Positions 42,819 through 47,577 of a stretch of 64,000 nucleotides of DNA are shown here, piece by piece. Origin of the DNA: Gordonibacter massiliensis (ex Traore et al. 2017) (GTDB lineage Bacteria; Actinomycetota; Coriobacteriia; Coriobacteriales; Eggerthellaceae); contig LT827128.1 of NCBI GenBank assembly GCA_900170005.1, positions 2,538,168 to 2,602,167 of the forward strand, given 5' to 3'. How positions within the stretch are numbered: position 1 is the stretch's first letter; each line of letters opens with the position of its first letter. The notes beneath the pieces were generated by a model that did no database searches, was not told where the DNA came from, and worked only from the letters and a program-made list of their open reading frames with translations. The translations under genes were made by a program, and so were the position numbers.

Positions 42819-43364
42819 TCAATCCGACGCGTCCGAAGTCTCCAGGCCCCGCTCGAACGCGTCGACGTAGGCGTCGACGTAGCGTGCCGCGGCTTCGATG
42901 TCCTCCACCTCGAGCTCTTTCAGAGCAGCGTTCTCCAAGCTATGGAGTTCTGAGAAAACACCGTCGCAAAAACGCAGGCCATCCTCGGTTAGAGAGACCA
43001 CTTTCGCCCGTCCGTCCGCAGGCGAACCGGATTCTCCAACATACCCTCTTTTCTTCAGGTTCGAAAGGATCGATCCCACCGTTTGCTTGGGAAGCCACAG
43101 CGCCTCGCTGATAAGGCGCTGGCCGCACGGCTCCTTAGCATAGCGGATGACCATCAACACCAGCAGCGAGTTGAAGTTGAGCCCGTGCCGCTTCGCGAAC
43201 CGCTCGTAATGCGCAAGGCTCTTCAGAAGCACTTGGTTCAATCTCAAAGTCGGCAGGAAGTAGCTGTCGGGCAGGCCCTCGCTGTACATCGATTGGACGC
43301 TGGTGAGGAAATCGTCGCGGAAGGCCTCCGCATTCTCTCCTCCGGCGTTGCCTTTTGTCGACAT
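42819..43364 (-). CDS. MarR-family transcriptional regulator
   Basis: 181 residues with a winged helix (GQRLISEALWLPKQTVGSILSNLKKRGYVGESGSPADGRAKVVSLTEDG) between long dimerisation helices. The ATG at 43364 follows AAAGGAAGGAG. It diverges from the efflux-antitoxin-toxin fusion gene at 43560, a typical arrangement for a repressor of a drug efflux pump. The effector is unknown. Confidence 0.9.
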   Translation of the reverse strand: MSTKGNAGGENAEAFRDDFLTSVQSMYSEGLPDSYFLPTLRLNQVLLKSLAHYERFAKRHGLNFNSLLVLMVIRYAKEPCGQRLISEALWLPKQTVGSILSNLKKRGYVGESGSPADGRAKVVSLTEDGLRFCDGVFSELHSLENAALKELEVEDIEAAARYVDAYVDAFERGLETSDASD

Positions 43365-43525
43365 GGCTCTCCTTCCTTTCAAGGCCGGGAGGAAAGCCCG
43401 GCCAATTGCTGCTGCCATTATCCCCGTTCGCAGGGTTCGTTGCACCAAGGTCGTTCGAACTACAAAAAATTGACTGATTTCGGTTTATTTCTATGGACTT
43501 CCGGCTTTTACTTTGTTAGGCTCAT

Positions 43526-43545
43526 ATAGTCCGAATTCAGTCTAT
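43526..43545. promoter_or_regulatory. Candidate MarR operator overlapping the efflux promoter
   Basis: A 20-bp imperfect palindrome centred on GAATTC (8 of 10 base pairs match), ATAGTCCGAATTCAGTCTAT, lies 15 bp before the fusion-gene start. Its left end overlaps a TATAGT -10-like hexamer (43525-43530). MarR proteins bind palindromes of this size, so it is a plausible repressor site. Confidence 0.45.
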
Positions 43546-43559
43546 TAGAAAGGGATGCT

Positions 43560-45920
43560 ATGTCAGATCTTGTGCACATGAGTCCTGCGACGCTCTCAAA
43601 GGGGCGCTTGTGGGCAGCTCTGGTGGTGATATTGTTCGGGCAGTTCATCGTGTCGATCGACCTGACGGTGCTCAACATCGCGCTACCGGACCTCACGAAG
43701 GACTTGAAACCCACGTCCGACCAGCTCCTGTGGATCGTCGACGTGTACTCGCTCGTGCTCGCGGGCCTGCTGGTGGCAACCAGTTCGCTTTCCGACCGGT
43801 TCGGCAGGAAGCGCACGCTGCTCACCGGCTTCTTCCTGTTCGGGGTGGGGTCGCTGCTCATCGTGTTCGCCAACAGCCCCGGCTACGTCATCGCCATCCG
43901 CGCGTTTCTCGGCGTGGGCGGCGCGCTCATCATGCCCGTCACCGTGTCGATGATACGCAGCATCTTCCAAAACGCGAAGGAGCGCGCCTTCGCCGTTGCG
44001 GCGTGGTCGGCCATCGGCGCGCTCGGCATGGCCACCGGGCCGCTCATCGGCGGCTTTCTGCTCGAGCACTTCAACTGGCATGCGGCGTTCCTCGTGAACG
44101 TGCCGCTCATGGTCGCGGCGTTCGCAGCCGGTATCTTCGTGCTGCCCGAAGTGCGCCTCAAGAAGCCCGGCTCGTTCGACATCCTCGCCTCCCTCATCTT
44201 CCTGGCCGGCATGGTGGCGTTCCTCTGGGGCATCAAGCACCTCGCCGCCGAGCTCGCGTTCGACACCCAAGGCGTCGCGGCAACCGTGGCCGGCGTGGTG
44301 CTGCTGGGCCTGTTCGTCTTCCGCTGCCTGCGCGCAAAGACGCCCGTCGTGGATCTATCGCTCTTCCGCAGCAAGCCCTTCACGGCTGGCATTATCGCCA
44401 CCATGGGCAGCATGTTCGCCATGGCCACCCTACTCTACATGCTTTCCCAGTGGCTGCAGCTGGTGAACGGCGACGGCACGCTGGAAGCCGGCGCGAAGCT
44501 GGTTCCCATGGCCATCGCAAGCCTCATCGCCAGCGCGCTCGCCACGCCGCTCGCCATGAAGCTCCGGCCCCGCAACGTGGTTGCCGGCGGCATGGTGCTG
44601 GCGGCCGCGGCCATGATGATGCTCATGTTCTTCAGGGACGATCTGGAGCTACTGCCCGTCATGATATCCACCACGCTCGTGGGCGTGGGCACCGGCGCGC
44701 TGGCCATCGGGGCGTCGCTCGTCATGTGCGAGACGCCCGTCGAGAAGGCCTCGAGCGCGGGCAGCCTGCAAGAGATTTCCTACGACCTGGGCAACGTGCT
44801 GGGCGTGGCCATCCTGGGCAGCCTGGCCTCCATCATCTACCGTAGCGGGCTTCCCACCGGCGAGCTGCGCGCCATGGGCCTGGACGGCAAGACCATCGAC
44901 GCCGCCGAGCAGTCGCTTTCCGCCACGTCGGTGATCGCCGAGCAGCTCGGCCTGCCCCAGCTGCTGCAGAAGGGCATCGACGCGTTCAACGACTCCGTCG
45001 TGATCACGTGCTTCGTCGGCGGCATCATCATCCTCGTAGTGGCCGTTATCGTGTGGGCGCTCATTCCGCGCGACGTGAAGATCACCGAGAACGAAGGCGA
45101 GCCGGACGATGGCGGCGCCCTGCCGGACGCGGGCGACTCCGCGAACGCCAACGGCTCCGCGACCGGCACCGCCCTCGGCAGCGGCAACCTGACCGGCACC
45201 GGGCTGGCTGGCGGCAACGTCGCCGGCGGCGGGGCTCCTTCGGCAGCGAAGGCGGCGCAAGCTCCCTTGTCCGCTTCCCTCGGCGCCCCGATGGCGGCCG
45301 CCGCGCCGATCAACGCCCGGAACCTCTTGGACGAGAACAGGGAGCCCTCGATGGGTGGCGCCGGGCTGGCGTGCGCTGCACCTGCGGAAACGCAGCTGGT
45401 GGCGCCTGCGCCGGGCGTGCTCAGCATACCGGTCAAGACCGAGACGCTGATCGAGATGGATTCCGTCTGCCAAGAGCTCGGCATCAGCATGGGCACGGCC
45501 TTCAGCCTCTTCGCCACCAAGGTGGCGCGCGAGCGCCGCATTCCCTTCAAACTCGCCGTCGACCCCTTCTACACCGAAGAGAACCTTGCCCACCTGCGCA
45601 GCTGCGTGCGCATGCTGAACGAGGGCAACGGCGTGCAAGAAGTGCGCAGGAACATCCGCGTTTGGGCGCCGAAGGCTTGGAACGACTACAACCGCATGCG
45701 CTTCGACGACAACGATCGGCACCGGCGCATCAAAGACATCCTCAAGGACATCGAGAAGAACGGGCCCAAAAAGAGCGGCGGCAAGCCCGAACCTCTGACC
45801 GGCGAGTTGACGGGCCTCTGGTCGCGGCGCATCGACAAGCGCGGCAAGCTGGTCTTCCGGCTTGTGAAGGGCAATGTGGAAATCGTCTCATGCGCGCCGT
45901 GGGCATCGCGCCGCGCATGA
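43560..45920 (+). CDS. DHA2-type MFS efflux transporter fused to RelB/DinJ antitoxin and YoeB toxin domains
   Basis: 786 residues in one open frame. Residues 1-504 are a 14-helix DHA2 (EmrB-type) drug:H+ antiporter with SIDLTVLNIALPDL and DRFGRKRTLL. Residues 505-618 are a Gly/Ala/Pro-rich linker. Residues 619-695 match RelB/DinJ antitoxins (LSIPVKTETL, SLFATKVARERRIPF, DPFYTEENLAHLRSCV). Residues 700-786 match YoeB toxins (WNDYNRMR, IKDILKDI, GKPEPLTGELTGLWSRRI). YoeB catalytic Glu46 is kept (E744), Arg65 is Lys (K763) and His83 is Trp (W781), so nuclease activity is probably weak or lost. The gene faces a MarR repressor. The fusion lies at the cytoplasmic C-terminus. Each domain call is strong; the combined role is unknown. 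Confidence 0.88.
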   Translation: MSDLVHMSPATLSKGRLWAALVVILFGQFIVSIDLTVLNIALPDLTKDLKPTSDQLLWIVDVYSLVLAGLLVATSSLSDRFGRKRTLLTGFFLFGVGSLLIVFANSPGYVIAIRAFLGVGGALIMPVTVSMIRSIFQNAKERAFAVAAWSAIGALGMATGPLIGGFLLEHFNWHAAFLVNVPLMVAAFAAGIFVLPEVRLKKPGSFDILASLIFLAGMVAFLWGIKHLAAELAFDTQGVAATVAGVVLLGLFVFRCLRAKTPVVDLSLFRSKPFTAGIIATMGSMFAMATLLYMLSQWLQLVNGDGTLEAGAKLVPMAIASLIASALATPLAMKLRPRNVVAGGMVLAAAAMMMLMFFRDDLELLPVMISTTLVGVGTGALAIGASLVMCETPVEKASSAGSLQEISYDLGNVLGVAILGSLASIIYRSGLPTGELRAMGLDGKTIDAAEQSLSATSVIAEQLGLPQLLQKGIDAFNDSVVITCFVGGIIILVVAVIVWALIPRDVKITENEGEPDDGGALPDAGDSANANGSATGTALGSGNLTGTGLAGGNVAGGGAPSAAKAAQAPLSASLGAPMAAAAPINARNLLDENREPSMGGAGLACAAPAETQLVAPAPGVLSIPVKTETLIEMDSVCQELGISMGTAFSLFATKVARERRIPFKLAVDPFYTEENLAHLRSCVRMLNEGNGVQEVRRNIRVWAPKAWNDYNRMRFDDNDRHRRIKDILKDIEKNGPKKSGGKPEPLTGELTGLWSRRIDKRGKLVFRLVKGNVEIVSCAPWASRRA

Positions 45921-46014
45921 GCGCACGGCGAATGCGGCCGGCGCGCGCAACGCCCGAAAGCGCCGGCCGATGAAACCCCGAGCCTTGATCCCCGATAGGA
46001 AGGAACGAAGACGT

Positions 46015-46866
46015 ATGAAAAAGAAAGCGACCTTGATCGCGCTGTGCGCATTGAGCTTGACCATGGCCTGCGTGCTCGCCGGATGCGGGGCGAGCCTCGA
46101 TCGCGAGATCACCGTGGAGGGCATGACGCTGAAGGTGCCGTCGAACTGGGTGGAGACGTCTGACGAGGAGACGACCTCGGTCCTCGCCCTCTCGCGCCTC
46201 GAGGCCCCAAAAGCGGGCGCCGCAGGAAACGTCACGCCAGAAGGTGCTGTCGCAGGAACCGGCTCGGTGGAAATCGGTGCCGCAGCGACCGGCACCGCGA
46301 TGGACGATCCTGCACACGACGATCCCGAAAAGGCCGAAGCAGAAGGCGAAAACACGACGGGAGACGTCTCCCCAAGCGACGAACTCGCCGTGACGGACGG
46401 CGTCGATGAGGTCGGGGCCGACGCGAGCCGGGTGATCTCCAACTCGCCAGGCGATGCCGCGTCGAACGGCTCCGCGGCAGCCTCCGGCGTCACACCAGGC
46501 GGGAACGTTGCGTACCGCGACGTGGACGAGGACAACGAAGACGAGCACAACGCCATAACCGTCTCGTACCTCCCGCTGGCGAAAAGCCCGGTGAAGTCCG
46601 CCCAAGAGGCCATCGCGCTCAAGCAGCTGCAGGCCGAACGGGAGTTCGGCGTCATCAACTGGGACATCGACAAGGAGAAGTCGAGCGTGATCGACGGTGC
46701 TCAAGTCACGAAGTTCGAGTACAGCTTCGAGAAGGAGATCGACCACGTGACGAAGAAGTACGAGTACAAGACCGTCTACGTCTTCAATGCCGGCATGTGC
46801 TACGAGATATCCGTCTACGGCGGCGCAGCTTCCCTTGACGACGTCGTGAACAGCATAGAGTTCTAA
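46015..46866 (+). CDS. Lipoprotein with low-complexity insert
   Basis: 283 residues. A lipoprotein signal (MKKKATLIALCALSLTMACVLAGC, lipobox LAGC, Cys24) follows AGGAAGGAACG. The mature protein starts as a compact domain (ITVEGMTLKVPSNWVE...), is interrupted by about 110 Gly/Ala/Thr/Asp-rich residues (65-175), and resumes with ITVSYLPLAKSPVKSAQEAIALKQL to the end. It may be an anchored, ligand-binding or structural protein. It follows the efflux-TA fusion by 95 bp and precedes a CmpB-family membrane protein. Confidence 0.75.
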   Translation: MKKKATLIALCALSLTMACVLAGCGASLDREITVEGMTLKVPSNWVETSDEETTSVLALSRLEAPKAGAAGNVTPEGAVAGTGSVEIGAAATGTAMDDPAHDDPEKAEAEGENTTGDVSPSDELAVTDGVDEVGADASRVISNSPGDAASNGSAAASGVTPGGNVAYRDVDEDNEDEHNAITVSYLPLAKSPVKSAQEAIALKQLQAEREFGVINWDIDKEKSSVIDGAQVTKFEYSFEKEIDHVTKKYEYKTVYVFNAGMCYEISVYGGAASLDDVVNSIEF

Positions 46867-46890
46867 TCTCCCCGCTCAGCAAGGAACATC

Positions 46891-47577
46891 ATGGATGCAG
46901 CCGCGACGAACAGCCGAACCGAATCCCTTCCCTCCCTCAACCTACAGCTTCTGTTCTGGCTGTTCGTCGTCGCCTCTATCGCAGGGCTCGCCATCGAGAC
47001 CGCCTTCCACGCAGTGGTGTTCGGCGGATACGAAAGCCGTCCGGGGCTCGTATGGGGCCCGTTCTCCCCCATTTACGGCACGGGGGCCGTTATGCTCACG
47101 GTGGTGGCCTCCCGTTTCTCCAGGCTGAACGCCCCGGCTATGTTCCTGGCCTCAGCGCTCATCGGGTCGGGTATCGAAGTGGCCACCGGGTGGCTCATGG
47201 AGGTTCTCTTCGGTGCGGTCGCATGGGATTACAGTCACCTACCCGGGAGCTTCGGCAGAAGCCTGAACTTGGGGTTCGCCCTCGTATGGGGAGCCCTTGG
47301 CCTCGCCTGGACGCGGATCGCCATGCCCTTTATCAACCGCGTCGCTCATAGGATCAATTGGAAGAGCGGGGTTGTTCGCGCCCTGAGCACGGCGGGCGCG
47401 GTGTTCATGGCCGTCAACATCGCGATCACCCTCCAGGTGTTTGCCCGCGAAAGCGCCCGAGCAGACGGCCTGCCCCCGGCAAATTCCATTGAACGTTGCA
47501 TCGACGAACAGTTTCCCTCCGCTTGGACGCAGCAACGCTTTGAGAATATGAGCATCCGCGGCTCCCAGTCGCACTGA
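46891..47577 (+). CDS. CmpB-family (ABC_trans_CmpB) membrane protein
   Basis: 228 residues with about five to six membrane helices. The stretch LFWLFVVASIAGLAIETAFHAVVFGGYESRPGLVWGPFSPIYGTGAVML is the family signature (E in helix 1, RxGLVxGPFxPIYGxGA). These proteins are annotated as putative ABC permease components, but their role is not established. It starts 24 bp after the lipoprotein gene, so they are probably cotranscribed. Confidence 0.8.
   Translation: MDAAATNSRTESLPSLNLQLLFWLFVVASIAGLAIETAFHAVVFGGYESRPGLVWGPFSPIYGTGAVMLTVVASRFSRLNAPAMFLASALIGSGIEVATGWLMEVLFGAVAWDYSHLPGSFGRSLNLGFALVWGALGLAWTRIAMPFINRVAHRINWKSGVVRALSTAGAVFMAVNIAITLQVFARESARADGLPPANSIERCIDEQFPSAWTQQRFENMSIRGSQSH

Follow-up and report, generated by a model that had tools for sequence, protein, structure and literature searches.

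The window (the whole 64,000-nucleotide stretch of DNA analysed) contains a gene in which a drug exporter, an antitoxin and a toxin appear to be encoded as a single polypeptide. Is this fusion genuine, and if so, what became of the toxin-antitoxin pair once it was attached to a pump?

The exporter and the toxin-antitoxin pair share one frame

The frame is unbroken over 786 codons, exactly between the bounds given in Table 1. Pfam profiles recognised three domains in its product, MFS_1 at residues 24-415, RelB at 622-667 and YoeB_toxin at 702-778, all three scoring over their cut-offs, and the full-length model consists of 14 long helices at residues 14-501, a disordered stretch at 510-624 (pLDDT about 25) and then a folded tail. 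Third-position GC stays between 0.86 and 0.91 across the transporter, linker, RelB and YoeB segments, and this steadiness shows that the frame is coding throughout. As the original prediction held, both the antitoxin stop and the toxin start are gone: no stop interrupts the frame, and the start codon of the toxin is replaced by Ile, in the window as well as in one of the relatives described below (L014).

Table 1. Features of the fused gene and its surroundings (positions in the window)
Feature	Position	Strand	Basis
MarR-family regulator, divergent from the fused gene	42819..43448	-	Pfam MarR_2 E 5e-8; a MarR of 55% identity next to the orthologous operon of L068
20-bp palindrome ATAGTCCGAATTCAGTCTAT, candidate MarR operator, just upstream of the fused gene	43526..43545	.	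putative function
Fused gene: QacA-like MFS exporter, linker, RelB-derived and YoeB-derived domains, 786 aa	43560..45920	+	Pfam, full-length model; same architecture in L009, L011, L014
14-helix DHA2/QacA-like transporter, residues 1-504	43560..45071	+	Pfam MFS_1 E 1e-46; NCBIfam QacA/B 445 bits over 15-510; QacA structure
Gly/Ala-rich linker, about residues 505-615, predicted disordered	45072..45404	+	pLDDT about 25 over 510-624; near-neutral dN/dS between relatives
RelB/DinJ-derived ribbon-helix-helix domain and C-terminal helix, about residues 616-697	45405..45650	+	Pfam RelB E 8e-7; DNA-contact residues changed
YoeB-derived domain, about residues 698-778, catalytically degenerate	45651..45893	+	Pfam YoeB_toxin E 3e-16; Z 15.9 fold match; R65K, H83 and Y84 lost
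Last 8 codons, replaced C-terminus; +1 frame CGT GGG CAT (RGH) as in intact YoeB	45894..45917	+	putative frameshift
Lipoprotein gene downstream of the fused gene	46015..46866	+	homologues by tblastn in L066, L067, L068, L071, L073, L014

The host genome is one closed contig of 3.95 Mb, from the same family as Enteroscipio, Raoultibacter, Gordonibacter and Paraeggerthella. The same one-frame architecture is present in three further species, each sequenced independently. An assembly or sequencing error joining separate genes is thereby excluded, and we give this explanation a negligible probability. Pumps alone and toxin-antitoxin pairs elsewhere, the pattern by which the original prediction would have recognised such an error, do occur in other relatives, but the fused form in three more species refutes the error itself. 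It is near certain that the fusion is real and goes beyond an accident in a single genome.

The transporter part is related to QacA

QacA and QacB are 14-helix drug/H+ antiporters of the DHA2 family. The transporter part of the fused protein has 14 transmembrane helices around an MFS core in the model, and the nearest solved structure, by sequence and by fold, is that of QacA (7y58; 44% identity, TM 0.93 on the target). The identity to QacA/QacB, which come from Staphylococcus plasmids, extends over residues 14-509, and QacA, with 514 aa, ends where the linker starts in the fused protein. The NCBIfam QacA/B exception model scored 445 bits over residues 15-510 against a cut-off of 900 bits; thus, the transporter is a relative of QacA and not QacA itself. 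Residues D34, D61, E407 and D411 of QacA, which we take to be its proton-coupling acidic residues (D411N is named in the PDB title), have acidic equivalents in the window exporter. These residues, D34, D61, E405 and D409, are invariant in 17 orthologues, whereas the positions matching QacA D323 and E406 are non-acidic. The relatedness to QacA, together with the acidic residues kept, suggests that the transporter is probably a working exporter.

Fold and active site of the YoeB-derived domain

The YoeB-derived domain is recognised by both profile and fold. In the window it scored 59.8 bits with Pfam (cut-off 27 bits) and 52.0 against 51.8 bits with TIGR02116, and its model (pLDDT 86 for the tail) matched solved YoeB toxins with Z scores of 15 to 16, among them that of the YefM-YoeB pair of S. 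aureus (Z 15.9; 87 residues aligned with an rmsd of 1.8). In the ribosome-bound structure of YoeB, Glu46 serves as general base and His83 as general acid, Arg65 and Tyr84 stabilise the transition state, and Arg59 contacts mRNA and G530 (PMC3814384). All 16 standalone YoeBs compared (15 from the family and E. coli YoeB) have E46, R59, R65 and Y84, and 14 have H83. Among the four fused proteins, R65 and Y84 are lost in all, E46 in three and H83 in one, and Arg59 is kept throughout. The window protein has Lys at position 65 and is without His83 and Tyr84, which leaves Glu46 alone of the four catalytic residues; L009, L011 and L014 have Arg46 and Leu65, no Tyr84, and retain His83. A preferential loss of catalytic residues over other conserved residues was not significant (Fisher p 0.30), and we therefore claim loss of the catalytic residues but not selective loss.

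The original prediction had read Glu, Lys and Trp at three catalytic positions and proposed a toxin that cuts weakly or not at all. Glu46, the change of Arg65 to Lys and the absence of His83 were confirmed, and the residue losses bear out that cutting is unlikely. The Trp, however, is probably the product of a small insertion that shifts the frame close to the 3' end, where TGC-GCGC-CGT GGG CAT would give C...RGH in the +1 frame, immediately behind the conserved Cys region. From the 3' end of yoeB, this +1 frame was also seen to be free of stops into the downstream lipoprotein gene (45874-46866); were it not for the apparent small insertion, the tail would run into that gene.

A toxin-antitoxin device that still works, with proteolysis or an internal start freeing active YoeB under stress, would find a possible internal start in a GAGGG motif, which precedes an in-frame GTG at the RelB/YoeB junction of the window protein and an ATG in L009 and L011. 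We nevertheless regard such a device as extremely improbable, given the loss of Arg65 and Tyr84 in all four proteins, of His83 in the window and of Glu46 in the others, the Ile at the toxin's own start in the window and L014, and the lack of any promoter-like site on the + strand of 43300-47000 in a simple consensus scan. In EzeT, which carries antitoxin and toxin domains on one chain as the fused protein does, the toxin is active once the antitoxin part is removed (PMC4826407); the residue losses speak against a similar activity here.

It had also been proposed that the tail ties the pump to translating ribosomes or senses translation stress, with a dead YoeB binding the ribosomal A site. The persistence of Arg59 in four of four fused proteins and the strongly basic character of the window domain (net charge +9) would suit this role, but the domain carries a charge of -4 in the three other fused proteins (-1 to +7 in full-length standalone toxins), and the contacts made by E46, R65, H83/Y84 and N51 are largely lost. 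Ribosome tethering is thus highly improbable.

The RelB-derived domain

In RelB/YoeB type II systems antitoxin and toxin are two genes and the antitoxin has DNA-contact residues. Here there is a single frame, and the contact positions are changed in four of four fused proteins, the strand Arg to Pro and a Lys to Leu. From general knowledge of ribbon-helix-helix proteins, these basic positions presumably face the DNA. Proteins of this class occur only as dimers, and the strand makes both dimer and DNA contacts (PMC4803016); the Pro in the ribbon strand may weaken dimerisation.

Distribution and origin of the tail

The search covered 138 genomes from the family and 397 from the order, and found an orthologous exporter in 17 genomes. 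The tail is patchily distributed among them. Four species of three genera have it in full and in frame: the window, L009 (same genus), L011 (the same as L066, Enteroscipio rubneri ResAG-96) and L014 (a third genus). It ends inside the RelB part in Raoultibacter timonensis (L013/L073) and in an uncultured member of the Coriobacteriia from another family (L059). The remaining orthologues, for example those of Paraeggerthella hongkongensis and Gordonibacter sp. An230, extend no further than the last helix or a short linker; L012, L015, L016 and others have no tail. The window genome has no second match to the tail and, when searched as a whole, no YoeB-family match besides the fused one among the matches listed. 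Across the order, YoeB was joined to no other partner among the matches listed, all other frames being of at most 226 aa. A search of genome contigs with the single protein as query gave no match, and none of 699 plasmid matches covers 80% of the fused protein.

Two-gene RelB/YoeB pairs of the same subfamily, with catalytic residues intact, are also present in this family, the closest being L029, L030 and L032. A standalone pair with a broken toxin frame was seen as well (L028, in G030), so that some two-gene pairs of the family are themselves in decay. The four fused sequences grouped in the YoeB tree with modest support (77/85), and their grouping was not rejected in the RelB tree (AU p 0.65). 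In the transporter tree they did not group, so that one or more losses, or else a second gain, must be assumed. As we read them, the trees of these short domains are compatible with a single as well as a multiple origin of the fusion. Three replacements, Arg to Pro in the RelB strand, Lys to Leu in RelB and N28 to Lys in YoeB, are private to all four fused proteins and occur in no standalone sequence compared, and these shared residues favour one origin of the fusion, followed by losses.

Selection on the tail and its possible role

Whether the tail is constrained as a protein was assessed with L009 and L014, whose divergence postdates the fusion. By a simple counting method on this one pair, dN/dS was 0.10 for the transporter, 0.82 for the linker (CI 0.44-1.57, not below 1), 0.26 for RelB (0.13-0.50) and 0.47 for YoeB (0.25-0.81); L011 gave the same picture. 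The linker thus behaves as a neutral spacer and the RelB and YoeB domains appear constrained, which indicates that both tail domains are under purifying selection in one branch, although they seem to have lost toxin and repressor function. For the window compared with L009, the tail gave a saturated value of 0.74 (CI 0.48-1.09), which does not exclude 1.

These ratios are the main evidence, by sequence comparison, against a useless remnant. The main rival to a functional tail is a passenger in decay: the exporter would have lost its stop once and read into a downstream toxin-antitoxin pair, and the tail would be tolerated, eroding and functionless. Its truncation or absence in the orthologues listed above, the nearly neutral evolution of the linker, the probable frameshift at the 3' end in the window and the greater divergence of the tail (38% identity between the window and L009, 70% for the transporter) are all consistent with decay. 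Conversely, the RelB and YoeB intervals for the pair that diverged after the fusion exclude 1, all four frames are open and both folds are predicted intact, and we consider a mere passenger rather unlikely.

We give an even chance to the reading that a RelB/DinJ-YoeB pair was captured behind a QacA-like exporter and then domesticated as a cytoplasmic protein-protein module, and count it as supported, the tail being constrained while the toxin and repressor functions look lost. The capture would have occurred in the Coriobacteriia, in frame and 3' of the 14-helix proton-coupled exporter, and domestication would have come later. Both termini of the exporter are expected to be cytoplasmic, so the tail would hang inside the cell, tethered by about 110 residues of flexible linker. 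In this position, the ribbon-helix-helix domain and the RelB-YoeB clamp could form a module that brings exporter protomers together in pairs or binds a partner, and that possibly tunes the stability, position or activity of the pump. More tentatively, the domesticated complex would assemble or regulate the exporter, the antitoxin dimer and its clamp on the dead toxin acting as a control domain that accompanies the pump in inheritance and in horizontal transfer. Against a domesticated module, several close orthologues lack the tail and two carry a truncated one, so some lineages can do without it; moreover, the two fused lineages are unlike in charge and have not lost the same catalytic residues.

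It also seems conceivable that the RelB part of the pump serves as a decoy that binds and neutralises free YoeB- or RelE-type toxins, the fused YoeB being its spent partner. The region of the RelB C-terminal helix is well kept in the window, where DPFYTEENLAHLR matches standalone antitoxins, and constraint is stronger on RelB than on YoeB. However, the DPFY region is not preserved in L009 and L014, the clamp would already be filled by the fused YoeB, and the window genome is without another tail match or listed YoeB-family match. We consider a decoy improbable.

Neighbouring genes and transfer

The original prediction assigned control of the gene to the neighbouring MarR regulator, responding to drug exposure. 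In line with this, the regulator is divergent, an operator-like palindrome lies between the two genes, with a related arm at 43468-43488, and the same kind of MarR is found beside the operon in L068. Possibly, MarR sets the timing of pump production. Most relatives have a homologous lipoprotein gene next to the exporter, and the regulator is either MarR or TetR. In L068 (5533-6486, Candidatus Aphodovivens), a tailless exporter overlaps the start of the lipoprotein gene, and a MarR gene follows; this order is probably close to that of the operon before the tail was inserted. An M28 peptidase neighbour, shared by the window and E. rubneri, was considered as a sign of orthologous placement and dropped, as G004 and G059 are without it.

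A 3.8-kb cassette comprising TetR, the lipoprotein gene and the fused gene in full length shows 96.5% identity between L009 (53-3856, in G004) and L066 (2553-6353, E. rubneri), that is, in two genera and at different genomic places. To judge from this identity at different loci, the cassette reflects a recent horizontal transfer, and the fused gene is mobile as a unit with its tail.

Relation to known systems

Curated models recognise both tail domains as those of RelB/DinJ-YoeB (Txe) type II pairs, of which the standalone pairs L029, L030 and L032 are nearest, but here both share one polypeptide with a transporter and have lost DNA-contact and catalytic residues. Single-chain toxin-antitoxin proteins include, besides EzeT, HicA-HicB fusions (PMC4826407, PMC4803016) and the Phd-RelE fusion of Ralstonia eutropha, which is likewise thought inactive (PMC4803016). 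None of these single-chain proteins has been described with a membrane transporter. PhoH2, a VapC-like PIN domain joined to a helicase, also has a toxin family as a domain of a larger protein, but is an active, soluble RNase with a separate antitoxin gene (PMC4826407). In the open-access literature we found no description of an MFS-toxin-antitoxin fusion, as the original prediction had anticipated. The locus offers a traceable case of an addiction module becoming part of an ordinary cellular machine, with intact two-gene ancestors, fused, truncated and tailless forms coexisting in one group of gut-dwelling bacteria, so that the steps are directly testable. If domestication is correct, a drug exporter would have gained a cytoplasmic control domain of a kind for which we found no description.

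In several Eggerthellaceae, RelB was seen at the head of single proteins of about 220-265 aa, L086 (G005), L087 (G008) and L089 (G071). RelB frames of 547 aa in G005 and G008 were set aside as chance open frames around the shorter RelB-headed protein. The C-terminal part of L086 and L087 looks PIN/VapC-like by eye, yet has no Pfam match. This suggests that further single-chain antitoxin-toxin proteins exist among the Eggerthellaceae.
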